From SAR86 cluster bacterium (GTDB taxonomy: Bacteria; Pseudomonadota; Gammaproteobacteria; Magnimaribacterales; Magnimaribacteraceae): a stretch of DNA of 64,000 nucleotides. The DNA lies in NCBI GenBank assembly GCA_029268615.1, contig JAQWNM010000013.1:1-64000 (forward strand), read 5' to 3'. The notes under the pieces were generated by a model, which ran no database searches, was not told the DNA's origin, and saw only the letters and a list, made by a program, of their open reading frames with translations. A program made the translations under genes and the position numbers. Shown here in pieces: positions 32,409 to 63,276 of this stretch (the first letter of the stretch is position 1; each line of letters opens with the position of its first letter).

Positions 32409-33614
32409 TTAAACTCCTCTTATTTTATATACTAAAGATGCTATATCATTTGCCGTCTTCCATGCTGTTATGCCAGGATGCATTTGGTTCATAACAAAAC
32501 CTAAAGATGTTTTATTTTCTGGATCACTAAAACCGAGAGATCCACCAGCGCCTCCATGTCCAAAAGATTTTATTCCTGGACCCATACTAATATGCTCAGT
32601 TCCAAGCATAAAACCTAATCCAAATTTACTTTTAATGTTGGCTAGAACAAGATCCTTACCTTCCACTTCGGCGGTTCTTCCTTTTTCTATTGTTTCTGGA
32701 TTTAATATATGAATACCATCTCTCGAACCTCCATTAGCAAGTATGCCATAAAGTTTGGCCAAGGCACGAGCTGTTCCATGACCATTAGCAGCTGGTATTT
32801 CAGCATTTCTCCATTCTTTAGTATTAACATACTCTATATTAAATTCAGGATTTGAAAAAGCAGAACCCTGAGGAGTGTTAGAGTCAAAAAAATTTAATAA
32901 GATTTTTAAGTAAGGAGGATAAAAAGGCATCTGAGGGATTTTTTTAAGAATTGGCATGAAAAAATCTACTATTGGAGTTTCTGCTTTAAGGATATTCGTG
33001 ACTCTATCAAACTTATCATCTGGTAATCCAATCCAGAAGTCTAATTCCAGTGGCTCTTGTATATTTTCTTTAAAATATGTACCGATCGACTTACCAGAAA
33101 TTCTTCTTACTAACTCTCCCACCAAATGACCATAAGATAGTGCATGATAGCCGTGTCTAGAACCTGGAATCCACCAAGGTTCTTGTTCCGCTAAAGATGT
33201 AGTAATTAAATTCCAGTCCGTCCAAGCACCACTAGGTAAAGGTTTTTTAATTCCACAAAGACCTGATTGATGACTTAATAAAAACCTTACTGGTATGGAC
33301 TCTTTCCCACCTTGACTAAATTCAGGCCAATGCTTAGAAACAGGATCATCAAGATTGACTGAACCTTCCTCCAGTAACTTTAAAAAACAAATTGCCGCAA
33401 TTCCTTTTGTTGTAGAAAAAACATTTACTATGGTATCTTTTTTCCACAGTTCTTTTGAATTTTTACTTACCCTTCCTCCCCAGAGATCTATAACCATTTC
33501 TCCTTCAACTTCTATTGCAATAGCCGCACCGAACTCAAACCCTGAATCAAAACTTTTTTGAAAAAGATCTCTTACTTCTAAAAATTTAGAGTCGCAATAT
33601 CCCTCTACTTTCAA
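32409..33614 (-). CDS. Beta-lactamase-fold serine hydrolase (EstB-like esterase)
   Basis: A 401-residue cytoplasmic protein (no signal peptide). The SxxK nucleophile motif is STTK in NVFSTTKGIAAI near residue 90. A Tyr in HGYHALSYG (near 165) fits the second motif, and the HGGAGGSLGFSDP stretch near the C-terminus replaces KTG. Such enzymes hydrolyse esters or small lactones. It overlaps the KstD-like gene by four bases, so it probably works on the same pathway. Confidence 0.83.
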   Translation of the reverse strand: MKVEGYCDSKFLEVRDLFQKSFDSGFEFGAAIAIEVEGEMVIDLWGGRVSKNSKELWKKDTIVNVFSTTKGIAAICFLKLLEEGSVNLDDPVSKHWPEFSQGGKESIPVRFLLSHQSGLCGIKKPLPSGAWTDWNLITTSLAEQEPWWIPGSRHGYHALSYGHLVGELVRRISGKSIGTYFKENIQEPLELDFWIGLPDDKFDRVTNILKAETPIVDFFMPILKKIPQMPFYPPYLKILLNFFDSNTPQGSAFSNPEFNIEYVNTKEWRNAEIPAANGHGTARALAKLYGILANGGSRDGIHILNPETIEKGRTAEVEGKDLVLANIKSKFGLGFMLGTEHISMGPGIKSFGHGGAGGSLGFSDPENKTSLGFVMNQMHPGITAWKTANDIASLVYKIRGV

Positions 33615-35311
33615 TTAGCTCTCCCTATGTCTCTACCGGCAATATAACCAAAAGTCATGGCAGGGCCAAGAGTAGATCCAGGTCCTGGATACCTAGGTAA
33701 AAGTGCAGAAGTACAATTTCCACAAGCCCATAAACCTGGTATGTGTAAATTATTAGAATCTAAAACTCTGGCTCTTGAATCTATTACTAGGCCTCCAGCT
33801 GTGCCCATTTCCCCAGGATAAAGAGTAATACTATAGAAAGGAGGTTTGCTGACTGTACCTAGACATGGATTAGGTTTGATTGAAGGATCGCCATAATATC
33901 TGTCGTAAACACTATCTCCTCTTTTATAATCTAAATCTTTACCTTCTGCAGCAAAGGTGTTCACTTTGTTTATTGTCTTCATAAAGCCATCTTTATTTAT
34001 AGAGAGTTTATCAGCCAATTCCTCTAAAGAATTGGCCTTTACAAGAAAAGAATTATCCCACCAATGATTAGGTACCAAGCTATCAGGCATCATAGAGGAC
34101 TGAAGAAGAGGTCCACAAGGCCTTTTTTTTCTATACTCTGAATCAAAAATCATAAAACAAGGTATGCAAGGGTTTCCAACAGAAAATTTATCATACATCT
34201 CATCAACAAAACTCACATAATTTTGAGATTCATTTGAAAATCTCTCACCATTAGAATTTACACAAAATGCCCCAGGTAGTGATTTATCTACCATTGAAAG
34301 TCTAGCTTTTTCTTCTCCGGGAACTTGCATAACTGTTGACCACCAGGCTGATTCCATTTGATTAGTCTTACCTCCAATCTTGATCGCTTCTGTGATGACC
34401 TCTCCTGTATTATCAAGATTTGCGGCACTCCATGATGTTTTAGAAGGCTTGGGCAGGAATTTATCCCTCATTTCTTGATTGCGTTCAAATCCACCTGAGG
34501 CCAAAACAACCCCATGTCTTGCACTTATAGTAACCTCATCTCCTTCTTTTATAGCCTTTATTCCCGTTACCTTTCCGCCTTCAAATACAAATTCTTTAAA
34601 AGAGGTATTAAGCCAAAAAGGAACTTCTCTTTCTTTTAACGACATTCTTAATCTAGCAATTCCAGCATTACCCATTGTCAATCTTCTGTCTTTGAAATTT
34701 GTAAAACGATATGGAAAATCAAACAAAAATTTTATTAGAAGTTTGATAAACAAAATAACCCATCCCGATAATCCACCTAATAATATTTGGCCTTCTACTT
34801 GAGTAAAATTAATGCCCATGGGTCCTTTTGTCTGAGGATGCTGACCCCTTAAAAATTTCAAGTCCTCTCTTAATAAGTCCCCATAAAAAGGCTCTGGCTC
34901 CATTGATCTATGGCCTGACTTGCCGCCTGGATCATCAGGAAAATAGTCAGGATAGTGTTCAAGACTAATATACTTTACGTGTGTATTTTCATGAAGATAA
35001 TCAATCATCTCAGGCCCTTTAATTAAGTATGTCTCTATCAAGTCATCACTTATTTTTTCTTTAGGGGAAACATGTTTTATATATGTCCTTGCCTCTTCCA
35101 AGGAATCATTTGCCTCTAATTCTTTTGCATATCTATTATTAGGTACCCAAACTCCCCCACCAGAAGTTGCGCTTGAGCCCCCAAATAATCTACTTTTTTC
35201 TATGATTAATACATTAAGCCCCTGATCGTGCGCTGAAATAGCAGCTGTCATTCCACCATTTCCTGAACCGATTATTATTACATCATACGAATAACTTGAT
35301 TTAACAGTCAT
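33611..35311 (-). CDS. FAD-dependent dehydrogenase, 3-ketosteroid delta-1-dehydrogenase-like
   Basis: 566 residues of the fumarate reductase/KstD flavoprotein superfamily. The FAD motif GSGNGGMTAA is at 15-24, followed by EKSRLFGGSSATSGGGVWVP. The C-terminal segment GEMGTAGGLVIDSRARVLD and YPGPGSTLGPAMTFGYIAGRD is the KstD signature. KstD introduces a double bond in ring A of 3-ketosteroids. The real substrate here could be another cyclic ketone. It is divergent from a KshA-like Rieske oxygenase, the natural partner in steroid ring opening. Confidence 0.83.
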   Translation of the reverse strand: MTVKSSYSYDVIIIGSGNGGMTAAISAHDQGLNVLIIEKSRLFGGSSATSGGGVWVPNNRYAKELEANDSLEEARTYIKHVSPKEKISDDLIETYLIKGPEMIDYLHENTHVKYISLEHYPDYFPDDPGGKSGHRSMEPEPFYGDLLREDLKFLRGQHPQTKGPMGINFTQVEGQILLGGLSGWVILFIKLLIKFLFDFPYRFTNFKDRRLTMGNAGIARLRMSLKEREVPFWLNTSFKEFVFEGGKVTGIKAIKEGDEVTISARHGVVLASGGFERNQEMRDKFLPKPSKTSWSAANLDNTGEVITEAIKIGGKTNQMESAWWSTVMQVPGEEKARLSMVDKSLPGAFCVNSNGERFSNESQNYVSFVDEMYDKFSVGNPCIPCFMIFDSEYRKKRPCGPLLQSSMMPDSLVPNHWWDNSFLVKANSLEELADKLSINKDGFMKTINKVNTFAAEGKDLDYKRGDSVYDRYYGDPSIKPNPCLGTVSKPPFYSITLYPGEMGTAGGLVIDSRARVLDSNNLHIPGLWACGNCTSALLPRYPGPGSTLGPAMTFGYIAGRDIGRAN

Positions 35312-35387: not shown

Positions 35388-36356
35388 GTGAGTCGTTTTC
35401 CAATGCCAATTCCACATGGGTGGTATTTTGTATCTTATTCAGAAGATCTTATTAAGGAAAAATCAAAACCTTTAAACTATTTTAATACCGAGTTAGTTTT
35501 ATATAGAACAAAAAAAGGAGATCCAGTTCTTATGGAAGCCTATTGTCCACATATGGGTGCTCATCTTGGTTATGGTATTCACGAAAACATAGGAGAAGGC
35601 GGACCCGTTAAAGGCGATAATATTTCATGTCCTTTCCATGGATGGACTTTCAGTAAAGAAGGTTACGTAGTTGATATTCCCTATGCTGATAATATTCCAC
35701 CAAAAATTAAAGATAAAAAATGTATAAAAACTTTTCCTACGAGAGAAGTAAATAGAACAATAATGGCCTGGTATCATCCAGATGACTTAGATCCTATATG
35801 GGAACCAGATATTTATGATGAAGCTACAAATGCTAATTGGACAAATTTTGATAAATATGAATATAAATTCAATGCTCATTTACAAGAAACAGCGGAAAAT
35901 GGAGCTGATTCAGCTCACTTCGTATATGTACATGGTACGGCAACGCTTCCAGAATGGGATTTTTCTTATGAAGAACATAAACGTGTTGGAGTAATGAAAG
36001 CAAAAATGCCAACACCTAGGGGACTGGTAGATGGTTCTATCAATCTTTTTGGATCAGGTCCTGGTCAAAGTTCAACAAGATTTACTGGAATTTGTGAAAC
36101 ATTTCTTATGGGTTTACCTACTCCAATTAATTCTGAAAAGATGGAATTAAGGTTTGCCTTTTGTCAGGAAAAGAAAGATGGGAAAGACCCTAAAGGAGGA
36201 GTGGCTGCTGCAATAATTGCTGATATAAATAAGCAAGTCCAAGAGGACATACCCATATGGGAAAATAAAAAATATTTAGAAAACCCTATACTATGTTCTA
36301 AAGACGGACCAATTGCTGGTTTTAGAAGATGGTTTAAACAATTCTATACAAATTAA
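35388..36356 (+). CDS. Rieske non-heme iron oxygenase, KshA-like
   Basis: 322 residues, starting at GTG. The Rieske cluster ligands are C53-P-H55 and C81-P-F-H84. The mononuclear iron ligands fit D-x2-H-x4-H in NGADSAHFVYVH (near residue 175). It resembles the oxygenase component of 3-ketosteroid 9-alpha-hydroxylase and related cholesterol desaturases (DAF-36/Neverland). No dedicated reductase gene is adjacent. The C-terminal helical part looks somewhat short compared with KshA (about 380). Confidence 0.87.
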   Translation: MSRFPMPIPHGWYFVSYSEDLIKEKSKPLNYFNTELVLYRTKKGDPVLMEAYCPHMGAHLGYGIHENIGEGGPVKGDNISCPFHGWTFSKEGYVVDIPYADNIPPKIKDKKCIKTFPTREVNRTIMAWYHPDDLDPIWEPDIYDEATNANWTNFDKYEYKFNAHLQETAENGADSAHFVYVHGTATLPEWDFSYEEHKRVGVMKAKMPTPRGLVDGSINLFGSGPGQSSTRFTGICETFLMGLPTPINSEKMELRFAFCQEKKDGKDPKGGVAAAIIADINKQVQEDIPIWENKKYLENPILCSKDGPIAGFRRWFKQFYTN

Positions 36357-41770: not shown

Positions 41771-44185
41771 CTAAATATTTTTAATTCTTATAAGATCTTT
41801 TTTTATTTTTTTTCTATCAACCAATCCATTAACAGGCTCTTGCAACTTTGAAGGAGTTTTTGCTTTGGATGAGATTTGAGATTCTACTTGTCCATATAAA
41901 GTATTTCGCTGCCTTGGAGTTCTTCCCATGTCTTGAATTATGTTCTCTAATTTAAAAGGTGATAGTTCTTGTCCATGCTCTGATCCTGCGGCGCTGGTGA
42001 TAGATTCATTCATTAAAGTTCCACCAAGATCATTTGCACCAGCTTCTAGACATAGCTTTACTCCAGAAGGTCCCATTTTAACCCATGAGGTTTGAATATT
42101 TTTTATAAGTCCATGAAATACTAACCTTGAAACTGCATGCATCAAGACTGATTCCCTTAAGGTAGGGCCGTACCTTGATTTGCCATTTTTGTACATTGGA
42201 GCTTCCTGAGCAACATATGGTAGTGGTACAAATTCTGTAAAACCGCCCGTCTCTTCTTGAAGCCTTCTTATTTGCATAAGATGATTAGCCCAATGCTCAG
42301 GTTTCTCAATATGCCCAAACATAATGGTAGAAGTAGATGCCAAACCTATTTCATGTGCCGTTTTCATAACCTCTATCCATTGAGATGTATTTATTTTATC
42401 AGGACAAATAATTTGTCTTATTGAATCGTCTAATATTTCGGCAGCTGTTCCTGGCAAAGTACCTAACCCAATTCGTTTAAGTTCAGTTAGATAGTCTTTT
42501 AAACTAAGACCTAAAGAGCTAGCTCCCTGCCAAACCTCCAATGGAGAAAATGCATGGATATGCAAAGAAGGATTATGTTTTTTTATTGAATTGACGATTT
42601 CCATATACGTATGACCGTCGTAAGATGGGTGGATTCCACCTTGAAGACATACCTCAGTTGCTCCTCTATCTTCTGCCTCTTGGCATCGTCTTAGAATCTC
42701 AGATATTGGAATATCATATGGAGATCCGCGTAAATCTGAATTACCCTGCCCCTTAGAAAAAGCACAAAAAGTACAACCAAAATAACAAATATTTGTGTAG
42801 TTAATATTTCTATTTACAACATAAGTGACTTCATTACCTATCTGGTCTTTTCGAAGTTCATTTGCTGCTTCAATAACATAATTAAAATCAGAACCTCTGG
42901 CATTAAATAACTCTATTATTTGTTTATTATTTAATGACTTTCCTGATTCAACTACTTTTAAATGTTCGTTAAATGTTTTGGATTTATGCAGAGGAATTAC
43001 ACTATCTTTTTTTATTGGAATTTTTCCTTTACCAGTTATCCAATTATCTTCTCTTGATAGACCTGTAGCATCTGATAAAAAAAGAATTTTTGCATGAAGT
43101 GCCTTATGACTCCAGTGATTTAAATCATCAAGATATTTAGGATAAATAGTTAAACGGGGAACTAAAATCTTATTAGAAGCTAAAGTTTCTTTAGCAAGCT
43201 CCTCAAGATGAGGCCAAGGTAACTCTGGATTAACATAATCTGGCGTTAGTGGTGAAACTCCTCCCCAATCGTTTATACCTGCATTTATTAAAAGATTTAA
43301 TTTATTTGGGCTTAAATTAGGAGGGGCCTGAATACTCATTCCTTTTCCAAAGATAATTCTAGCAATAGCTATTGTCCATATTAGATCTTCAGTCAATGGC
43401 TCTTCAGATGCAGACATCTTTGTATTTTGTTTTGGTTTAAAATTCTGAATTATGACTTCTTGAATATGTCCATATTTATCGTGTATATTCTTGATAGCTA
43501 TAAGGGACTCTATTCTTTCTAGCCTAGTCTCACCTATACCAATCAGTATCCCGGTTGTGAAAGGAATTTTATGAATACCCGCTAGTTCTATAGTTTGTAA
43601 TCTAACTCGAGGATCTTTATCAGGAGATCCATAATGTGGACCGCCTTTTTCACAAAGTCTTAATGAAGAGCTTTCTAGCATTAAACCCATAGAGGCTGAC
43701 ACTTCTCTCATAGATATTATTTCTTCTGATGTCATACATCCCGGGTTTAAATGAGGAAGAAGACTTGTTTCTTTAAGAACAGCGGAACTAGCTTCGTGCA
43801 GATAGGATAGAGTTGAATCATGACCTAAATCTTTAAGGGCCTTTCGCGCTGCAGAATATCTTAATTCAGGCTTCTCTCCCAAGGTAAATAAAGCTTCTTT
43901 ACAACCTGCTTTTTCCGCTTTTTTTGCAGACTCTACAACCTCCTCAATACTCATAAAAAGACTTTTTACATTTTTGGGAGTCTTAGCAAAAGTGCAATAA
44001 TGACAAACATCTCTGCAAAGATGAGTTAAGGGAATAAAGACTTTTGGAGAGTAAGTTATAATATTAGAGAAGTTTGAATCTCTCAAAGAAGAAGCATTCA
44101 ATGATAGCAATTCAGTATCAGTAGCTTTAGCCAGATTCAGGATATCTTGATCTTTGTAGTTTTTTACGTATGCCTCATGTTCCAT
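41771..44185 (-). CDS. fbiC: FO synthase, CofG-CofH fusion (F420 deazaflavin synthesis)
   Basis: 804 residues with two radical SAM domains. The N-terminal CofG half has its cluster cysteines at C57-x3-C61-x2-C64 (CRDVCHYC), and the C-terminal CofH half has CYFGCTFC near 467-474. Together they join tyrosine to 5-amino-6-ribitylaminouracil to give FO, the deazaflavin core of F420. The fused order CofG-CofH is that of actinobacterial FbiC (about 850 residues). cofC, cofD and cofE lie about 1 kb upstream on the same strand. Confidence 0.95.
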   Translation of the reverse strand: MEHEAYVKNYKDQDILNLAKATDTELLSLNASSLRDSNFSNIITYSPKVFIPLTHLCRDVCHYCTFAKTPKNVKSLFMSIEEVVESAKKAEKAGCKEALFTLGEKPELRYSAARKALKDLGHDSTLSYLHEASSAVLKETSLLPHLNPGCMTSEEIISMREVSASMGLMLESSSLRLCEKGGPHYGSPDKDPRVRLQTIELAGIHKIPFTTGILIGIGETRLERIESLIAIKNIHDKYGHIQEVIIQNFKPKQNTKMSASEEPLTEDLIWTIAIARIIFGKGMSIQAPPNLSPNKLNLLINAGINDWGGVSPLTPDYVNPELPWPHLEELAKETLASNKILVPRLTIYPKYLDDLNHWSHKALHAKILFLSDATGLSREDNWITGKGKIPIKKDSVIPLHKSKTFNEHLKVVESGKSLNNKQIIELFNARGSDFNYVIEAANELRKDQIGNEVTYVVNRNINYTNICYFGCTFCAFSKGQGNSDLRGSPYDIPISEILRRCQEAEDRGATEVCLQGGIHPSYDGHTYMEIVNSIKKHNPSLHIHAFSPLEVWQGASSLGLSLKDYLTELKRIGLGTLPGTAAEILDDSIRQIICPDKINTSQWIEVMKTAHEIGLASTSTIMFGHIEKPEHWANHLMQIRRLQEETGGFTEFVPLPYVAQEAPMYKNGKSRYGPTLRESVLMHAVSRLVFHGLIKNIQTSWVKMGPSGVKLCLEAGANDLGGTLMNESITSAAGSEHGQELSPFKLENIIQDMGRTPRQRNTLYGQVESQISSKAKTPSKLQEPVNGLVDRKKIKKDLIRIKNI

Positions 44186-44258
44186 TTGGGTGATATAATA
44201 TCTTTAATTACATAATAAATAAAAAAAACTTAAGTTATGAAAAATAAAGGGGAATAAA

Positions 44259-45134
44259 ATGAAATTTGGATATCACGCAGCTATGTGCAACCCAGAATTC
44301 TATATACCTCTAGCCAAGGCAGCTGAGTCTGCTGGTTTTGATAATTTTGTTATTCCGGATAGCATATGTTTTCCAGAGACTCCATCGAAATCGACATATC
44401 CATATAATGAAACTGGTAAAGGTGATTTTCTAGATGGAGTTCCTTTTTTAGAACCTTTTACTCTTATACCTGTTCTTGCCTCTCACACTTCTTCATTAAG
44501 ATTTACTACTCAAGTAATGAAATTGCCTATCAGGCAACCCGTCCTAGTAGCAAAACAATTATCATCAGTTGCTGTAATATCAAATAATAGATTTACTTTT
44601 GGTGTTGGTCTAAGTCCTTGGATTGAAGACTTTGAAGTAACTCAATCCCAATGGAGCGGAAGAGGTAAAAGAATGGATGAAATGATAGAGATCATAAGAG
44701 GTTTATTAAAAGGAGATTATTTTAGCTACGAAGGGGAATTCTATAAACTTCCTTCTATCAAAATATGCCCTGTTCCCTCTTTGAAGATACCTCTTTTAAT
44801 GGGAGGTCATAGTGAACCGGCTCTAAAAAGAGCTGCAAGATTTCTTGATGGATGGACTAGTGCTGGCTTAGAAATAGATGAAACTGAAAGAATTATTAAC
44901 CGAATAAATGAGTTAAGATCTGAATATGGAACAAAAGATAAAGAATTTTATAATCTTTCAATGGGGCCTGAATGTTATTCACTTGAAGGAGTATCGAAAC
45001 TAAATTCTATAGGCGTTAATGAGTGTGCTGTAGGTTTTAGAGATAGTTATGCAGGCGGTAAAGATGATCGAACTTTAGATGGCATGCTTGCTGAAATAGA
45101 TTTTTATTCCAGAACAGTAATCAAACAATACTAA
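44259..45134 (+). CDS. LLM-class (luciferase-like) F420-dependent oxidoreductase
   Basis: A 291-residue TIM barrel of the bacterial luciferase-like family. Its start (FGYHAAMCNPEFYIPLAKAAESAGFDNFVIPDS), the GVGLSPW segment and the PLLMGGHSEPALKRAARFLDGW motif fit the F420-dependent branch. A strong AAAGGGG ribosome-binding site precedes ATG 44259. The gene is transcribed against its neighbours but lies inside the F420 gene set, which supports F420 over FMN. Substrate unknown. Confidence 0.87.
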   Translation: MKFGYHAAMCNPEFYIPLAKAAESAGFDNFVIPDSICFPETPSKSTYPYNETGKGDFLDGVPFLEPFTLIPVLASHTSSLRFTTQVMKLPIRQPVLVAKQLSSVAVISNNRFTFGVGLSPWIEDFEVTQSQWSGRGKRMDEMIEIIRGLLKGDYFSYEGEFYKLPSIKICPVPSLKIPLLMGGHSEPALKRAARFLDGWTSAGLEIDETERIINRINELRSEYGTKDKEFYNLSMGPECYSLEGVSKLNSIGVNECAVGFRDSYAGGKDDRTLDGMLAEIDFYSRTVIKQY

Positions 45135-45772
45135 CTATTTAAATAACTTTCTAAATTTAAATATTTTCTTTCGGTTAGGAAATCATCTAAATCTTGACGA
45201 ACATCAATATCAGCTGATAATTTATTAGCCTTATGGATCTTTATTTTTACTTTTACTTGACCAGCCTCTTCAAGATGATAACTACAACTATCTATTCCAT
45301 ACCTAAATTTAATTGCATTTGGAGGAGTGCAAATCATACAGTTAGTACCTGCTCCAATTGTATCTGGTAATAAAGTTACAGCGGCTACATTATTTATCAA
45401 TAATTCATTATGCGCATTAATAATTGAAAATATTGATGCTTGATCGACTCCCGGAATATCTCCATGCATTATAAATATAGACTTAGCTCCATTACTCATA
45501 GAGTAAGATACTCCTTCTTTAACACCTTGATTTAAACCTGGTTTTTTTTGCAATAAAGATTTACAGCCTAGTTTCTTAGCAAACCTAATAACCTCTTCGT
45601 CCTCCGTTACTATCAAATGCTCTGTGAAAGCTTTTGTATTCTGTTGAACTTTAATGACATCCGAGAGCATTTTCCGGACTAAACTTCTTCTCTCATCCAA
45701 AGAAAGAATATCATTTAATCTACTTTTAGGTCTTTTGAATGATTTAATGGGAACTAGAGACCAAATAGTCAT
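45131..45772 (-). CDS. cofC: Phospholactate/PEP guanylyltransferase (CofC/FbiD)
   Basis: 213 residues of the nucleotidyltransferase fold. SLVPIKSFKRPKSRL at the N-terminus, MHGDIPGV (the metal-binding Asp) and the PDTIGAGTNCM segment are family features. It activates 2-phospholactate, PEP or 3-phosphoglycerate with GTP for transfer to FO. Which of the three is used cannot be read by eye. It overlaps the LLM gene by four bases (convergent) and ends the cofE-cofD-cofC run. Confidence 0.92.
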   Translation of the reverse strand: MTIWSLVPIKSFKRPKSRLNDILSLDERRSLVRKMLSDVIKVQQNTKAFTEHLIVTEDEEVIRFAKKLGCKSLLQKKPGLNQGVKEGVSYSMSNGAKSIFIMHGDIPGVDQASIFSIINAHNELLINNVAAVTLLPDTIGAGTNCMICTPPNAIKFRYGIDSCSYHLEEAGQVKVKIKIHKANKLSADIDVRQDLDDFLTERKYLNLESYLNS

Positions 45773-45773
45773 T

Positions 45774-46706
45774 TTAATTTAATAAATTTAAACAAGCTTC
45801 AGCTAAAGTTATTTTAGTTTTTGTGTCAGTCATTAATATTTCATCAAATTCTATTTGAATATTTTCTCTGCCAGAAAAAGACAACTTGTCTTCATGATCT
45901 ACCAATAGTATGTCAATCATATCTTTATAATGTTCTAAAATTGTATCTATACTAACTTGCAAATCCAATTCTTCCATAATTTTAACTGTAGGGCCTTTAA
46001 TAGCACGATTCTTGATAATTGGAGAAACAGCTATTGCTGGGCATTTTCTATTAATCAAAAAATCTCTTATATCTTTGACTGACAAGATTGGATCAATACT
46101 TAAATAAGGATTTGAAGGACAAATAATAATTCCAGAAAAATAATTTTCTTGCATTTTTTGTAATAAAGAGTCAGGAACTTTGGCATTTATACTATTTCTG
46201 AAGTTAATCTCTTTTATTGCGGGATGGCATTTATGTTTAACGAAATATTCTTGGAATGATAATGTGCCTATGTCTGTTTCTAATATAGTACTGACAGGAA
46301 TCTCAGACATAGGAAAAATAGAATAATGTACATTAAAATCAACTGCAATTTTAGTGATAACTTCTGAAAAAAGACCTCCTTCTTTTATTAAGAAACTTCT
46401 TTTTATATGAGTCATAAGGTCTTTATCTCCTAATTGGAACCAGGTATCTTCTTTAATGCGATCTAATATTCTCATGAATTCCCAAGTTTCATCTTTTATG
46501 CCCCAGCCTCTTGTATGGTCATTTATGTTTGTTAATGTATAAATCAAAGTATCAATATCTGGGCTAATATTTAGATCAAAATGAATAAAATCATCTCCAG
46601 TATTAACAATAAAGATTAATTCATCAGATGAAAGTTTTTTTGATAAACCAAAGGCTAATTTAGCTCCACCAATTCCGCCGCATAATGCTAAGTATTTTTT
46701 TTTCAA
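45774..46706 (-). CDS. cofD: 2-phospho-L-lactate transferase (CofD/FbiA)
   Basis: A 310-residue enzyme that joins the activated phospholactyl or enolpyruvyl unit to FO, giving F420-0 or dehydro-F420-0. The start CGGIGGAKLAFGL (residues 9-21) and the NTGDDFIHFDLNISPDIDTLIYTLT segment are diagnostic. It lies one base from both cofE and cofC, so the three genes are a tight operon. Confidence 0.95.
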   Translation of the reverse strand: MKKKYLALCGGIGGAKLAFGLSKKLSSDELIFIVNTGDDFIHFDLNISPDIDTLIYTLTNINDHTRGWGIKDETWEFMRILDRIKEDTWFQLGDKDLMTHIKRSFLIKEGGLFSEVITKIAVDFNVHYSIFPMSEIPVSTILETDIGTLSFQEYFVKHKCHPAIKEINFRNSINAKVPDSLLQKMQENYFSGIIICPSNPYLSIDPILSVKDIRDFLINRKCPAIAVSPIIKNRAIKGPTVKIMEELDLQVSIDTILEHYKDMIDILLVDHEDKLSFSGRENIQIEFDEILMTDTKTKITLAEACLNLLN

Positions 46707-46707
46707 C

Positions 46708-47472
46708 TTATCTAAATAAATCCTGGTCTGCCAATCTAAGTAATTCTTTTGCTGATTGTTCTACTGTTGGAAGCATTAAACCCTTAATCAGAACAACAGG
46801 AAGCCCCTCATCTGCTTGCCCCATAAGAATTGAAGCTGAAGAAGCTAATTCATCGCCTAATCCTATTTGGGTAACTTCTAGCAATCTACCATATAAATCC
46901 TTTTTTCCTCTCAAATCTGATAAAGTTAAAACTCCACTAGATCCAATAGCAATACCAGTTGTTCCATTCCTCCAGGCTCTTCCTGCGCTATCATTAATGA
47001 TTACTCCCAACTTTACATGTAACTTCTTTTCTAATGATAGCCTTATATCCTCAGCGCTTTTATCAGGATCTTTGGGTAATAATAGTACCTTTGGGTTATT
47101 ATCCAATGAATCTATATTTGATCTATCAATTCCTGCATTAGCATGAACAAAACCTAATTTATTTTCAACTACTATAACTCCTTCTCTTGTTCTAACTACT
47201 CTTTCAGATTCTTGGAGAATCACTTGAACTAATCTTGGATCTTTCTTTGTCTCCTTTGATAATGCAATAGCTTCTATTGATGGCTTGACTTCATTTAAGT
47301 AAACATATCTATTTTCTGATTTTGAAACAACTTTTTGTGCAATCACAAATATGTCTCCATCTTGGATATCTAAACTAAGTTTGACAATGGAGTCATAGAT
47401 AATCTGAGGAAGATCATCTCCTGGTTCTATAAGAGGAATTGATTCTAATGATTTTAAGATTAAATCATTCAT
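46708..47472 (-). CDS. cofE: F420-0:gamma-glutamyl ligase, single-domain CofE type
   Basis: 254 residues that add gamma-linked glutamates to F420-0. IPLIEPGDDLPQII, the VVSKSENR stretch, and INDSAGRAWRNGTTGIAIG identify the CofE fold. The C-terminal FMN reductase domain of mycobacterial FbiB (about 450 residues in all) is absent. If the organism uses PEP, reduction of dehydro-F420-0 must come from another protein. Confidence 0.94.
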   Translation of the reverse strand: MNDLILKSLESIPLIEPGDDLPQIIYDSIVKLSLDIQDGDIFVIAQKVVSKSENRYVYLNEVKPSIEAIALSKETKKDPRLVQVILQESERVVRTREGVIVVENKLGFVHANAGIDRSNIDSLDNNPKVLLLPKDPDKSAEDIRLSLEKKLHVKLGVIINDSAGRAWRNGTTGIAIGSSGVLTLSDLRGKKDLYGRLLEVTQIGLGDELASSASILMGQADEGLPVVLIKGLMLPTVEQSAKELLRLADQDLFR

Positions 47473-47474
47473 AA

Positions 47475-48125
47475 TTACATTTCTTCTATTCCAGTTATCT
47501 TTACACCCGAGTGTTTTATTTTGTGATGCCTATTAATACTTATAAGAACAGACGTTAAAGCTTCTGAAGCAGATGAATTAGCTAACTGCCCAGCATGCCA
47601 ACCCTTCATTCCCATTTTTTTTATTAAATCTATAACTTTCTGACGTGCTTCTTTATTATTTCCGCAAACTAGAACATCACAATCTATCGATTGATCATTT
47701 TTTAGAAGTTCTGCTGATATATTCTGGAAAGCAGAGACGACCTTTACCTTCTTTCCTAAGATTAATTGTGCAGATACAGCTGCTGATTGATATTTTGGTA
47801 ATTGCACTGTTCCAACTTTTGGTGGCATTAGAGGAACAGTTGCATCGATAAAAATTTTGTCTTGCACCTCATTAAAACAACTATTAATTGTAGATTCATG
47901 GTGAGCGAAAGGAACAGTCAAAATTGAGATATCACCTTTCTTTGCAGCATCTTTATTCAGTAAACCTTCGCAAGAAGGACTTAATAATTTTGCAGAAGCC
48001 TGAGCTGCTTCTAACTTTCTTGATCCTATAATAACTTTATAATTTGCTCTTATAAGTCTTTTTGCAATACCAGTTCCTAAATCTCCTGTACCACCTAATA
48101 TTGAAATAGTTTTATTACTTTCCAT
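47475..48125 (-). CDS. npdG: F420H2:NADP+ oxidoreductase
   Basis: A 216-residue Rossmann protein with ILGGTGDLGTGIAKRL at the N-terminus (NADP and F420 binding) and SRKLEAAQASAKLL after the second strand, typical of Fno/NpdG. It exchanges hydride between NADPH and F420. It is the first gene of the cof operon and starts two bases before cofE. It supplies F420H2 to enzymes such as the adjacent LLM oxidoreductase. Confidence 0.92.
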   Translation of the reverse strand: MESNKTISILGGTGDLGTGIAKRLIRANYKVIIGSRKLEAAQASAKLLSPSCEGLLNKDAAKKGDISILTVPFAHHESTINSCFNEVQDKIFIDATVPLMPPKVGTVQLPKYQSAAVSAQLILGKKVKVVSAFQNISAELLKNDQSIDCDVLVCGNNKEARQKVIDLIKKMGMKGWHAGQLANSSASEALTSVLISINRHHKIKHSGVKITGIEEM

Positions 48126-58451: not shown

Positions 58452-59258
58452 TTATTTGCCAGTAAATTTTGGTGTTCGTTTTTCTGCAAAAGCAGCTAAG
58501 CCTTCTTTAGAGTCATCAGATTCAAATACTGGCCAACCTAATTCTAGCTCTTTTTTTAAAGCCTCTTCCTCTGGTATTCCCTCGCCTAGATCCCTTAGGC
58601 TTTTCATAATTGCTTTAATTGCCACTGGAGAGTTTTCTACTATTTGTCTAGCCAATTCAAAGGCTTTATCTAATGATTTTCCTTCAGGGACAACGTGACC
58701 AATTAAACCATACTCCTTAGCCTCATCTGCGGTTATTCGTCTTCCTGTCAATAACATTTCTGCAGCCAGAGTATATGGAATTTGCCTCCTAATTCTAACA
58801 GTTGCTCCACCTAACGGAAATAAACCTCTTTTAGCTTCTGTTAAACCAAAAGTAGCTGTTTCAGCTGCTACTCTTATATCTGTTCCATGCAAGAATTCAG
58901 TGCCTCCAGCTAGAGCAAATCCTTCTACAGCAGCTATGATAGGTTTATATGGTCTATTGTGTCTTAGTAGAGCTTGCCAATGAAGATCTGGAACAGTTTC
59001 CATTCTTTTAATAATTTCCTTACTGCCTTGATCACCGCTATACATTGCAGTTAAGTCAGCTCCTGCACAGAATACATCTTTTGTTCCAGTAATAATTGCA
59101 CATCTTAAATTATCATCTTCATCAAGTTCTCGCCAAGCATCATATACATTTATTAACATGTCAGGACTGAGTGCATTTTTCTTTTCAGGCCTATTTAATT
59201 GGACTAAGAGAATATGATCTTTTTTTTCTATAATTGCATGTTGATCAGATAATTCCAT
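58452..59258 (-). CDS. Enoyl-CoA hydratase/isomerase family protein
   Basis: 268 residues of the crotonase fold. Oxyanion-hole segments are VFCAGADLTAMYSG (near 65) and GFALAGGTEFLHGTDIRVA (near 115), with the second Glu-containing region GLFPLGGATVRIRR. Such enzymes hydrate enoyl-CoA in beta-oxidation. Followed directly by rubredoxin. The exact acyl group is unknown. Confidence 0.87.
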   Translation of the reverse strand: MELSDQHAIIEKKDHILLVQLNRPEKKNALSPDMLINVYDAWRELDEDDNLRCAIITGTKDVFCAGADLTAMYSGDQGSKEIIKRMETVPDLHWQALLRHNRPYKPIIAAVEGFALAGGTEFLHGTDIRVAAETATFGLTEAKRGLFPLGGATVRIRRQIPYTLAAEMLLTGRRITADEAKEYGLIGHVVPEGKSLDKAFELARQIVENSPVAIKAIMKSLRDLGEGIPEEEALKKELELGWPVFESDDSKEGLAAFAEKRTPKFTGK

Positions 59259-59286: not shown

Positions 59287-60069
59287 TTAAGGTTTCTTAA
59301 ACAATAAAGTCATTCTATCGCTTTCACCTATTTCTATATATTTAGCCCTACCTTCTTCCTTTAACCTTAAGACTGGAGGTAAAGTCCAGACCCCTTTCTC
59401 ATAATTTTTAGTATCTTTAGAGTTAGCATTAATTTCACTAGTTTTAACTAAAATGAAACCTACTTTTTTAGCTTCTTCTATAGCAAGTTCTTGTGTCACA
59501 TAACCGCTTTTTTTCATCTCATCAACAGAAGTCCCAGGATTAGCTCTATGTGTAACTATACCAAAAATACCGCCCGACTTTAGAGCGTCAAAAGATTGAC
59601 TAAATATAGAACCCATATTTGGACCTAACCAGCTATGCAGGTTTCTAAATGTCAAAACAGCATCAACTGAGCCTTTTTCAGCCAAAACTTCTCCTAAATT
59701 CACAATACTAACTTTATCAAATGCCCCATTGGTAGATAATTTAGTCTCATATCTTTCTCTAGATCTTTTTTGATAAGAACCCTTGCTTGCATCATGTGCA
59801 GCTGCTATGAACTTTCCTGAGCCAGCTCCTATATAAGGAGCTAATATCTCTGTATACCAACCCGACCCTGGAGATAGTTCTACAAGAGTCATATCAGAAG
59901 AAATTCCAAAAAAAGAAAGAGTCTCATATGGATGTCTGAAGATATCTCTTTCTTGATTAACGCTAGATCTCAAATCACTCTCAATAGCATCTTGCAAAGA
60001 ATACGAGTAAAGGTTTAAGCAAAAAAAACAGAGAAAGATTGAAAGTCTTTTTACGTTTATATATTTCAT
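59287..60069 (-). CDS. Exported class I methyltransferase-like protein
   Basis: 260 residues. A hydrophobic N-terminal segment (SIFLCFFCLNLYSYS) indicates export. A SAM-like motif VELSPGSGWYTEIL follows near residue 63, with VDAVLTFRNLHSW near 135. Proteins of this group (annotated as methyltransferases with a signal peptide) are common in marine proteobacteria. How SAM would be supplied outside the cytoplasm is unclear. Function unproven. Confidence 0.77.
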   Translation of the reverse strand: MKYINVKRLSIFLCFFCLNLYSYSLQDAIESDLRSSVNQERDIFRHPYETLSFFGISSDMTLVELSPGSGWYTEILAPYIGAGSGKFIAAAHDASKGSYQKRSRERYETKLSTNGAFDKVSIVNLGEVLAEKGSVDAVLTFRNLHSWLGPNMGSIFSQSFDALKSGGIFGIVTHRANPGTSVDEMKKSGYVTQELAIEEAKKVGFILVKTSEINANSKDTKNYEKGVWTLPPVLRLKEEGRAKYIEIGESDRMTLLFKKP

Positions 60070-60125: not shown

Positions 60126-61280
60126 TTAAGGTTTTTTTGATGACACTATCCACATCGCAAAGAATTGTGCTCCTCCTCCAAAAGCATGTCCCATTGCAAT
60201 CTTAGCATTTGAAACCTGATACTCTCCAGCCTTTTGTCTAACTTGTTGTGCAGCTTCACCAAAACGAATAAGCCCAGAAGCACCTATAGGATTAGAAGAA
60301 AGCACACCTCCTGACATATTTACTGGAAATCTTCCTTCCAAAGCAGTATCTCCATTCTCAGTCATCTTCCAACCTTCTCCTTCGTCAGCAAGTAATAAGT
60401 TTTCTAGCCACATTGGTTCATACCAACTAAAAGGAACATAAATTTCAGCACAATCAATTTCTTTCCTTGGATCTAAGATTCCAGCCTGCTTATAAACATC
60501 TTGAGCACACATTTTGCCAGCTACAGGATTCACAACATCTCTACCTGCATACATAGTAGGCTCTGATCTTGCTGACGTACCTAAGATCCAGGCAGGAGTT
60601 TGATTAGAATCTACGCAATCTTCAGATGAGATGACTAAAGAACAGGAACCGTCTGATGATGGGCAGCTTTCTAAGAAAGTTAGTGGATCCCATAAAATAG
60701 GTGATTTTTCTACCATTTCTTCATTTATGCCTTCTATTTTTAAATGTGCATTTGGGTTTTTTAATGCATTTAATCTATCTTTAACAGCAACAAGTCTACC
60801 GATATTATCTGGAACATTATGTCTTCGTTTATATTCCCTCATATAGGGAGTAAAGTAGCCACCCGCACCTGCATTAATCAAAGGAGCATAAGGCACAGTA
60901 GTAGATAATGCCCACATGGCATTAGATTCTGATTGCTTTTCGTATGTAGAAACTAAAACTCTTTTAAAAAGACCACTTTGTATATACGATGCTGCAACTA
61001 TACCTGTAGCACCTCCTACACTACCTGCTGTATGGACTCTAATAATAGGTTTGCCGTTAGCAACCAAAGCATCAGATAAATATAATTCTGGCATCATTAC
61101 TCCTTCAAACATATCTGGCGCCTTTCCAAGTATGACAGCATCTATATCCTTCCAATCTAAATTAGCATCTTTTAAAGCCTTATCAGCTGACTCCCTTACT
61201 AATCCGGCCATAGATACGTCATCTCTTTTTGATTTATGGTGAGTCTGACCAACTCCCACTACAGCTGCTAAAGCAGTCAT
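60126..61280 (-). CDS. Thiolase-like protein lacking the nucleophilic cysteine (SCP-x/Ltp type)
   Basis: 384 residues from ATG 61280; the longer frame adds 24 residues that overlap the upstream gene, while 61280 gives the ATGA overlap usual for coupled genes. The fold is thiolase (VVGVGQTHH start, GGVLSSNPIGASGLIRFGEA). At the position of the active Cys the sequence is RVHTAGSVGG, with Gly86. The usual His in GHPxG is Asn. This fits thiolase-fold proteins such as Ltp2 that act as aldolases. Paired with the next thiolase-like and two DUF35 genes. Confidence 0.85.
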   Translation of the reverse strand: MTALAAVVGVGQTHHKSKRDDVSMAGLVRESADKALKDANLDWKDIDAVILGKAPDMFEGVMMPELYLSDALVANGKPIIRVHTAGSVGGATGIVAASYIQSGLFKRVLVSTYEKQSESNAMWALSTTVPYAPLINAGAGGYFTPYMREYKRRHNVPDNIGRLVAVKDRLNALKNPNAHLKIEGINEEMVEKSPILWDPLTFLESCPSSDGSCSLVISSEDCVDSNQTPAWILGTSARSEPTMYAGRDVVNPVAGKMCAQDVYKQAGILDPRKEIDCAEIYVPFSWYEPMWLENLLLADEGEGWKMTENGDTALEGRFPVNMSGGVLSSNPIGASGLIRFGEAAQQVRQKAGEYQVSNAKIAMGHAFGGGAQFFAMWIVSSKKP

Positions 61281-62335
61281 GAAGTAGCCTCTAAAAGAAC
61301 CAACATATTCTGCTGCAAACAAGGCCCTGAAGTTGCATGTGCAAGACCACAATTTAGTGAGGACGACTGAAGTTGTTGAAAAATAGACCCTACCCTATCG
61401 AGTCCTGCTGTCATAATTATATTACCTGCTAATGGTCCACCTGACTGATTTATTAAAACATCATCAGATAAATTTAATTCTTTTTTTAATAATAAATGTT
61501 GATGTGAAAAAGGTGCATGTAATTCAGCTACCTGTATGAGTTTTTTATCAAGATTTAATGCTTTTGCAGATATTTGGATAGAAGGAGATTTTGTAAGATC
61601 TCTCATTCCAATTTGTCCCGTTTCTATTCTGTGATCAAAACCAGTTATAAAAACTGGTCTTTTATGAAGCTCCTTTGCTTTCTTTTCTGAAGCAATAACC
61701 ATAACCGAAGCTCCGTCAGTGATAGGTGGGCAGTCATGTTTTCTGAGTGGTGATACAAAATATGGTTCATTAAGTAGATCCTTAATTGAAATATTACCAG
61801 ATAACTGTGCATTGGGATTATTTAAAGCATAACTTCTACTTTCTTTTACTACATGAGCCATCTCTGTTTCTGAAATAATATCTTCTTCTAGGAGTAATCT
61901 AGCTTGTAAAGCAGCAAGACTTACACTGTCAGGCCATAAAGGAGCCATGTAATAGGGATCTAACTGTAAACTTAATATCTCCCTAACTTGCCCTGGTGAG
62001 GATTTACCAAAACCATAAATTAAAGCTACTTCAGCCTGACCTGATTGTATTTTTAACCAGGATTCATAAAGAGCCCAAGCTGCATCCATTTCAACATGAG
62101 ATTCTTTAATAGGAGGAACTGCACTTACTGCATTTAAGCCATCCACAAATGCAAACGACACTCCTTGTAAATAGTCACAACTTCCAGAACAAGTAAAATC
62201 AATATCAGATTGAGTAATATTTAATTCAGCAAAAGCCTTATGAATAACGGACATAATGAGTTCAACTTCATTCTGGGCTCCTGTATCTCTCATCATAGGA
62301 GTCTGTTCGTAACCTATAATTCCAACTTTATGCAT
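61277..62335 (-). CDS. Second Cys-less thiolase-like protein
   Basis: 352 residues. Thiolase-type N-terminus (KVGIIGYEQTPMM) and C-terminus (SGGPLAGNIIMTAGLDR). At the active-Cys position the sequence is HVEMDAAWAL, giving Ala85. So neither of the two thiolase-like genes can use the normal mechanism. It overlaps the DUF35 gene upstream by eight bases and the other thiolase-like gene downstream by four, so the set is one operon and could form a mixed complex. Confidence 0.85.
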   Translation of the reverse strand: MHKVGIIGYEQTPMMRDTGAQNEVELIMSVIHKAFAELNITQSDIDFTCSGSCDYLQGVSFAFVDGLNAVSAVPPIKESHVEMDAAWALYESWLKIQSGQAEVALIYGFGKSSPGQVREILSLQLDPYYMAPLWPDSVSLAALQARLLLEEDIISETEMAHVVKESRSYALNNPNAQLSGNISIKDLLNEPYFVSPLRKHDCPPITDGASVMVIASEKKAKELHKRPVFITGFDHRIETGQIGMRDLTKSPSIQISAKALNLDKKLIQVAELHAPFSHQHLLLKKELNLSDDVLINQSGGPLAGNIIMTAGLDRVGSIFQQLQSSSLNCGLAHATSGPCLQQNMLVLLEATS

Positions 62336-62831
62336 TTTTAAATTTATCCCAAAGATTATCTATATCTCGATCTGGTTCTCCTGTTGGTTCAAAATAAATT
62401 ATATTTTCCAGGCTAGGTTTCCACTCATTTTTAGGTCTCCATAAAGCTTTTACTCTCATACCTATCGTTACTTGATCATGAGGGATTCCGCTTATAAGAT
62501 GCATAAAAGACAAGTCTGCTCCATCCAAGACAATATTAGCGGAAACAAATGGAGGATCTACAGCACCACCTGGAATCGGAATATAATTAATTGTAAAAGA
62601 TTCCACCGTACCTGTATGAGCTACTTCAACCTCTTCTTCTGTAGCCACTCCGTCTCTAGGACAAGAGCCTCTTGGCGGAACATAAACCCCTTTACATATG
62701 GGGCAACGTTGTCCAACTATTTTACCTTCTAACATTTTTTGTAAGAATAATGTCGTAGCAGCTCCAGCTGTATAGCTATAATTAAAATGAATAGGTGCTT
62801 CAAATCCAATTATTTTATTGTCTTCACTCAT
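62328..62831 (-). CDS. DUF35 OB-fold acyl-CoA-associated protein with zinc ribbon
   Basis: 167 residues. An N-terminal ribbon CPICKGVYVPPRGSCPRDG has three Cys (the fourth usual ligand is Asp), followed by the OB fold (GTVESFTINYIP, PPFVSANIVLDGADLSFMH, GMRVKALW). DUF35 proteins bridge or gate thiolase-fold partners; known pairs are ChsH2 with Ltp2 and the archaeal thiolase/HMG-CoA synthase complex. It is followed directly by the thiolase-like genes. Confidence 0.87.
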   Translation of the reverse strand: MSEDNKIIGFEAPIHFNYSYTAGAATTLFLQKMLEGKIVGQRCPICKGVYVPPRGSCPRDGVATEEEVEVAHTGTVESFTINYIPIPGGAVDPPFVSANIVLDGADLSFMHLISGIPHDQVTIGMRVKALWRPKNEWKPSLENIIYFEPTGEPDRDIDNLWDKFKNA

Positions 62832-62835
62832 CTAA

Positions 62836-63276
62836 TTATATTTTTTCAAAATAACAAATATCCTTGATAGATCCCTTTGGAGGAAGTGCCCAGCAAGCCT
62901 TAACTCTCATTCCTATTTTCATCTCATCTTCTGAAGAGATTTTAATAGCATGTAAAAAATTAGTGTCAGCGCCGTCTAATAAGATTAATGCCCAGGCAAA
63001 CGATTCCTGTATTGGGTGCTTATCTAGAGGGGAATGAACCCAAGACCAAGATTTTACTGTTCCTATGTTACCTAACTCAACGAATTCAGATAGTTCTTCT
63101 CCTGTATCAGGATCAAATTCTACTGGAGGCATTAGCACTTTACCCTTGCTATTTTTGATGCCCATAATCTGGCAAGATTGAAGACATGTAAGGAAATGCC
63201 CAACTATTGGGCCTGTAGACCTAGTATAAGTAAATCCTAAGTCAAAATTAGCTCTTAAAATATTTTTTTCATTCAT
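62836..63276 (-). CDS. DUF35-like OB-fold protein with degenerate zinc ribbon
   Basis: 146 residues, related to the preceding DUF35 protein. The ribbon is reduced to C-x3-C (CLQSCQIMG) with no second Cys pair, then an OB fold (GTVKSWSWVHSP, SFAWALILLDGADTNFLHAI, GMRVKACW). Having two DUF35 genes beside two thiolase-like genes suggests each partner has its own thiolase. First gene of the operon, divergent from the SDR at the right edge. Confidence 0.83.
   Translation of the reverse strand: MNEKNILRANFDLGFTYTRSTGPIVGHFLTCLQSCQIMGIKNSKGKVLMPPVEFDPDTGEELSEFVELGNIGTVKSWSWVHSPLDKHPIQESFAWALILLDGADTNFLHAIKISSEDEMKIGMRVKACWALPPKGSIKDICYFEKI

Follow-up and report, generated by a model that had tools for sequence, protein, structure and literature searches.

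The window, a stretch of 64,000 nucleotides at the start of contig JAQWNM010000013.1 of a SAR86 cluster bacterium, contains at positions 60126-63276 four genes encoded on the minus strand. From upstream to downstream, they encode two DUF35 proteins, hereafter DUFn (without zinc ribbon) and DUFz (with a ribbon), followed by two thiolase-fold proteins, Ltp4-like and Ltp3-like (Table 1). This position and gene count had been proposed in a sequence-only reading and are correct, and Pfam confirms its description of two DUF35 proteins, one of them ribbon-less. The same reading described the four genes as overlapping, which holds for two junctions (8 nt for DUFz/Ltp4 and 4 nt for Ltp4/Ltp3) but not for DUFn and DUFz, separated by a gap of 4 nt. 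A possible TTG start at 61352 for the Ltp3-like gene was rejected as spurious; the preferred start, ATG at 61280, produces an ATGA overlap with the stop codon of the upstream gene.

Table 1. Genes of the four-gene set and steroid-related or adjacent genes of the window
Gene product	Coordinates	Strand	Features
DUFn (DUF35 protein 1)	62836..63276	-	OB fold without Zn ribbon; Pfam OB_ChsH2_C only
DUFz (DUF35 protein 2)	62328..62831	-	Pfam OB_ChsH2_C and zf-ChsH2 ribbon
Ltp4-like thiolase-fold subunit	61277..62335	-	352 aa; Cys-less active site (ESHVE82MD, H273APF, N305)
Ltp3-like thiolase-fold subunit	60126..61280	-	384 aa; G86, Y281VPF, N330
260-aa protein	59287..60069	-	Between the Ltp3 and EchA19-like genes; methyltransferase-like look, apparent signal peptide
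EchA19-like enoyl-CoA hydratase	58452..59258	-	NF005864/PRK07799, 360 bits vs 316
KshA-type Rieske oxygenase	35388..36356	+	Pfam KshA_C, 112.5 bits vs 23.3
KstD-like 3-ketosteroid dehydrogenase	33611..35311	-	Best NCBIfam match 3-oxosteroid 1-dehydrogenase, 537 bits, under cut-off 788

Both thiolase-like proteins have the SCP2-thiolase fold and score above the curated cut-offs of distinct NCBIfam models: 623.1 bits against NF006180/PRK08313 (cut-off 514) for the Ltp3-like protein and 477 bits against NF005924/PRK07937 (cut-off 419) for the Ltp4-like protein. Among 399 Pseudomonadota genomes sampled, the PRK07937 cut-off is passed by this genome only. The set thus corresponds to Ltp3, Ltp4 and two DUF35 helper proteins, an enzyme set that is already known but structurally unstudied, with no structure of the Ltp3-Ltp4 family in the PDB. 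Neither protein is an orthologue of Ltp2, the model PRK07855/NF005892 giving scores of 108 (Ltp3) and 63 (Ltp4) for a cut-off of 469. For the Ltp3-like protein, this identity is further contradicted by an Asn at the position of Tyr344 of Ltp2. A true Ltp2 lies on another contig of the genome, C9 (E 1.3e-83 with 6ok1; 472.5 against the PRK07855 cut-off of 469).

AlphaFold2 monomer models (pLDDT 86.6 for Ltp4 and 81.2 for Ltp3) are thiolase folds, matching 6esq, 4yzo, 6ok1 and 9myr, as well as 7pxp and 5m3k. The best match of the Ltp4 model is a complex in which a DUF35 protein bridges two thiolase-fold enzymes, although these retain an active Cys and work in the opposite chemical direction. Model confidence is low on conserved loops (119-138 in Ltp3; 54-61 and 127-131 in Ltp4), as would be expected if they became ordered on a partner, so that the models support the fold and not the active-site geometry.

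We aligned the active sites of Ltp3 and Ltp4 with those of the SCP2 thiolase (6hsj), Ltp2 (6ok1) and paralogues. Ltp3 carries Gly86 at the position of the nucleophilic Cys (Gly in 81/81 orthologues and in Ltp2), Pro283 at the Cys position of the HDCF motif, which in CtSal is the acid Cys304, and Asn330 in place of the GHP His of thiolases, a site occupied by the acid Tyr344 in Ltp2 and by Gln352 in CtSal. Tyr281, in the motif YVPF, aligns with Tyr294 of Ltp2 and Tyr302 of CtSal, and all four Ltp3 residues are invariant (n=81 sequences). The aligned tyrosines act as catalytic base in Ltp2 and CtSal, and both enzymes are active aldolases despite lacking the thiolase nucleophile (PMC12329534). 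Ltp4 has neither catalytic Cys; the multiple alignment places at the nucleophile position Glu82, invariant (77/77) within the motif ESHVEMD, an assignment of this loop that is less sure because phmmer puts a gap there instead. Its position 273 is His or Tyr, and position 305, the GHP His site, is mostly Asn (Asn305 here). Across the orthologues examined, both catalytic Cys positions are lost, and the GHP His has disappeared from every copy of Ltp3 and from almost every copy of Ltp4.

The sequence-only reading had already recognized the absence of the nucleophilic Cys and of the GHPxG His. Its Gly86 is correct for the Ltp3-like protein and the His site is Asn in both subunits, but Ala85, which it placed at the nucleophile position of the other subunit, is doubtful in view of Glu82 or the phmmer gap. 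A normal thiolase with a displaced Cys, a possibility raised at the same time, was rejected: the conserved Cys206 and Cys213 of Ltp3 align with the structural, non-catalytic CCPTSDG segment of SCP2 thiolases. An SCP2-type thiolase was likewise rejected, since the nucleophile Cys, the HDCF Cys and the GHP His are all missing, only His273 of the HDCF motif being retained in Ltp4.

Comparison with the steroid aldolase Ltp2-ChsH2(DUF35) (PDB 6ok1), also suggested by the earlier reading, reveals a common thiolase fold, a DUF35 partner, the Gly at the Cys position and the base Tyr (YDHF in Ltp2, YVPF here). However, Ltp2 is a homodimer whose DUF35 is fused to a MaoC hydratase, whereas here we find a predicted hetero-pair, two DUF35 proteins and a hydratase of the crotonase type, with Asn330 in place of the acid Tyr. 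The bile-acid aldolase Sal-Shy(DUF35) (PDB 9myr) similarly shares the fold, the DUF35 protein, the base Tyr and an amide residue (Gln/Asn) replacing the GHP His, but differs by its acid Cys in a YDCY motif and by a C3H1 zinc finger. Because the acids Tyr344 and Cys304 are replaced by Asn330 and Pro283, the mechanisms of Ltp2 and CtSal are not simply transferable. A tentative idea, which we consider possible but less likely than not, is that of a third type of aldolase active site, split between subunits, in which Tyr281 of Ltp3 would be the base and the acid would come from a residue, invariant in Ltp4 or Ltp3, that has no such role in Ltp2 or Sal (e.g., Glu82 or His80 of Ltp4, or His83 of Ltp3), within an obligate four-part complex where the zinc and zinc-less DUF35 proteins would each serve a different subunit.

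No ribbon Cys is conserved across 75 sequences of DUFn, and the loss of the ribbon in one DUF35 protein is a trait of the family. We detected no relative of DUFn in the PDB by sequence search. DUFz matches ChsH2(DUF35) (6ok1_B, E 3.6e-9) and has at the ribbon positions three Cys and one Asp (C43, C46, C57 and D60), position 60 being Cys in 51/77 orthologues. DUFn corresponds to the N-terminal half of fused DUF35 proteins of the type of Rv3521, which we take to be a double DUF35 protein. The pair is fused in 39 loci of Actinomycetes (four others being split), five of Gammaproteobacteria and one of Acidimicrobiia; in the 31 remaining scored loci, the two are separate genes.

Scanning named genomes, we recovered 80 loci in Actinomycetota, Gammaproteobacteria (SAR86 cluster, Halieaceae and Spongiibacteraceae) and Myxococcota. 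The order DUF35 (no Zn)-DUF35 (Zn)-Ltp4-Ltp3 on one strand is conserved in 75 of them, which argues against a chance arrangement, and four more are interrupted by the end of a contig. The last one, on a chromosome labelled Deltaproteobacteria, has an intact Ltp3, but its Ltp4 is reduced to the C-terminal 85 residues and a DUF35 gene is missing upstream, corresponding either to an assembly error or to a real loss. Within the order to which the genome belongs, 31/199 genomes have an Ltp3 orthologue (E<=1e-100), directly beside an Ltp4 gene in 30 of the 31 (at least one truncated at a contig end); the remaining one is cut at the contig start. In a tree of concatenated Ltp4 and Ltp3, the window groups with SAR86 copies (SH-aLRT 99) and all Gammaproteobacteria lie on one side of a branch, leading us to reject a recent patchwork or local oddity. 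It is on this tree, together with the small size of the genome, that calling the host SAR86-like is based here. The double set, which had appeared unusual from the sequence alone, is in fact the standard form of the family, known in Mycobacterium as Rv3521-Rv3522-Rv3523.

The known counterparts are actinobacterial. Ltp3-Ltp4 is described in reviews as a heteromeric aldol-lyase needed for the degradation of C24-branched sterol side chains (PMC6678751, citing Wilbrink 2012), ltp3 and ltp4 respond to phytosterol with an induction of about 97-fold (PMC6593523), and Rv3521, Rv3522 (ltp4) and Rv3523 (ltp3) have consecutive locus numbers in a cholesterol gene list (PMC6429209). In Mycolicibacterium neoaurum, ltp3 or ltp4 knockouts still made 4-HBC from phytosterols (PMC10398937), suggesting that some strains or routes may dispense with the Ltp3/Ltp4 step. 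The set of the window resembles these systems (Rhodococcus; M. tuberculosis Rv3523/Rv3522 with Rv3521) by the membership of both curated subfamilies, the order DUF35-Ltp4-Ltp3 and a nearby hydratase of the EchA19 type. In Nocardia farcinica and Tsukamurella, a DUF35 fusion, Ltp4 and Ltp3 likewise lie near an EchA19-like hydratase, the Tsukamurella record annotating in addition an AMP-binding protein, a P450 and a steroid 3-ketoacyl-CoA thiolase; the motifs HTAGSVGG, YVPFSW, SNPIGA and ESHVEMD are identical in both and here. In contrast to the mostly fused DUF35 proteins of Actinomycetes, the window has two DUF35 genes, in a streamlined SAR86-like gammaproteobacterium. The tie to the characterised Rhodococcus proteins runs via family models, gene order and neighbours.

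Sterol genes are present in the window and elsewhere in the genome. The EchA19-like hydratase, which is found near the set in 56/80 loci, scores 345 with the EchA19 model itself, just under the cut-off of 400, and probably supplies the 3-hydroxyacyl-CoA substrate. The intervening 260-aa protein has no Pfam or NCBIfam match and its gene is not beside the set in other loci. In the 199 genomes of the order, Ltp3 and KshA_C occur together in 30, Ltp3 alone in one, KshA_C alone in five and neither in 163; KshA_C is thus present in 30/31 genomes with Ltp3 and 5/168 others, with a Fisher p of 3e-29 that overstates independence because the co-occurrence is phylogenetically clustered.

F420 biosynthesis genes (CofGH, CofC, CofD, CofE and an F420-dependent oxidoreductase) are located at 41771-48125, beginning less than 6 kb from KshA. 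CofGH is present in 27/31 genomes with Ltp3, and in several genomes of the order the CofGH and KshA_C genes are about 1-12 kb apart. Contig C10 (231239-232192) encodes a protein of the F420_Rv3520c family (443 bits, cut-off 335); the locus number of its M. tuberculosis namesake, Rv3520c, precedes Rv3521-Rv3523. The Ltp2 of contig C9, whose motif is YDAF (Ala for the His of YDHF), belongs to an igr-like locus (C9:117008-121954) with a separate DUF35 gene, a P450, two MaoC-like genes and acyl-CoA dehydrogenases. Finally, in another DUF35-thiolase pair, at C13:101957-103528, the nucleophile Cys is retained (NGCATGG) while QDTE replaces HDCF and GEP replaces GHP, which looks, from these motifs, like a half-converted active site.

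Taken together, we propose, with a probability of about 80%, that the set encodes, together with two DUF35 partners, an Ltp3-Ltp4 aldol-lyase for steroid side chains, acting on a C24-branched sterol substrate. The heteromeric retro-aldolase of the Ltp2-ChsH2 type suggested by the sequence-only reading, with a steroid or terpenoid 3-hydroxyacyl-CoA as substrate, is supported by the family models, the conserved order, the neighbouring hydratase and the published work on Ltp3-Ltp4. This literature, the EchA19-like neighbour, the KstD and KshA genes and the co-occurrence with KshA argue for retro-aldol cleavage, the substrate being likely a sterol-CoA. In the proposed route, a beta-hydroxyacyl-CoA with its hydroxyl on the alkyl-branched (tertiary) C24 would be formed by a CoA ligase, an acyl-CoA dehydrogenase and the EchA19-like hydratase. 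A tertiary alcohol is not oxidisable to a ketone for thiolysis, and the heteromer would therefore split the C-C bond by retro-aldol cleavage, yielding a C24 ketone together with a short acyl-CoA. In this reaction, Tyr281 of Ltp3, the likely catalytic subunit, would act as base on the hydroxyl and Gly86 would open the pocket. Ltp4 would be a conserved partner whose pocket has been remodelled in its own way, and one DUF35 protein would clasp each of the thiolase-fold subunits.

The same aldolase chemistry might be directed at another substrate, either an unbranched sterol or bile-acid side chain or a branched terpenoid 3-hydroxyacyl-CoA. The sequence does not reveal the substrate, the presence of KshA is compatible with any steroid, and Sal and Ltp2 handle unbranched C5/C3 chains with the same fold (PMC12329534). 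We consider this possible but clearly less probable, since a distinct Ltp2 locus is present for the C3 step and the published ltp3/ltp4 genetics point to C24-branched sterols (PMC6678751). The lack of catalytic Cys and GHP His in both subunits, and the name "lipid-transfer protein" given to PRK07937 in NCBIfam, could also suggest a catalytically silent pair working as scaffold or as CoA-ester or lipid carrier; this is improbable, given the pocket residues invariant in 81 (Ltp3) and 77 (Ltp4) orthologues and the activity of Ltp2 and Sal without thiolase nucleophile (PMC12329534). Even less probable is an atypical thiolase or an acyltransferase of the Friedel-Crafts type, such as BbsAB or PhlABC, which would share the DUF35 plus thiolase architecture and agree with the fold matches 7pxp and 5m3k, but is at odds with the loss of the catalytic Cys and His and with the existence, at another place in this genome, of a DUF35-thiolase pair that is canonical in its HDCF, GHP and Cys.

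The Ltp3-Ltp4-DUF35 set, already known in Actinobacteria, is here also present in a SAR86-like genome. Passages of SAR86 genomics studies report steroid ring degradation in some lineages, with no mention of Ltp3-Ltp4 in these passages (PMC11582366; PMC4810484). The set flags a widespread steroid aldolase that differs from Ltp2 and Sal, for which structures are solved and whose acids are absent from Ltp3 and Ltp4. Such enzymes attract interest as biocatalysts for steroid drugs. Sterols alkylated at C24 are characteristic of algae and plants, and the presence of the set points to an ability of some streamlined SAR86-like bacteria of the ocean to strip C24 branches such as those of algal sterols.
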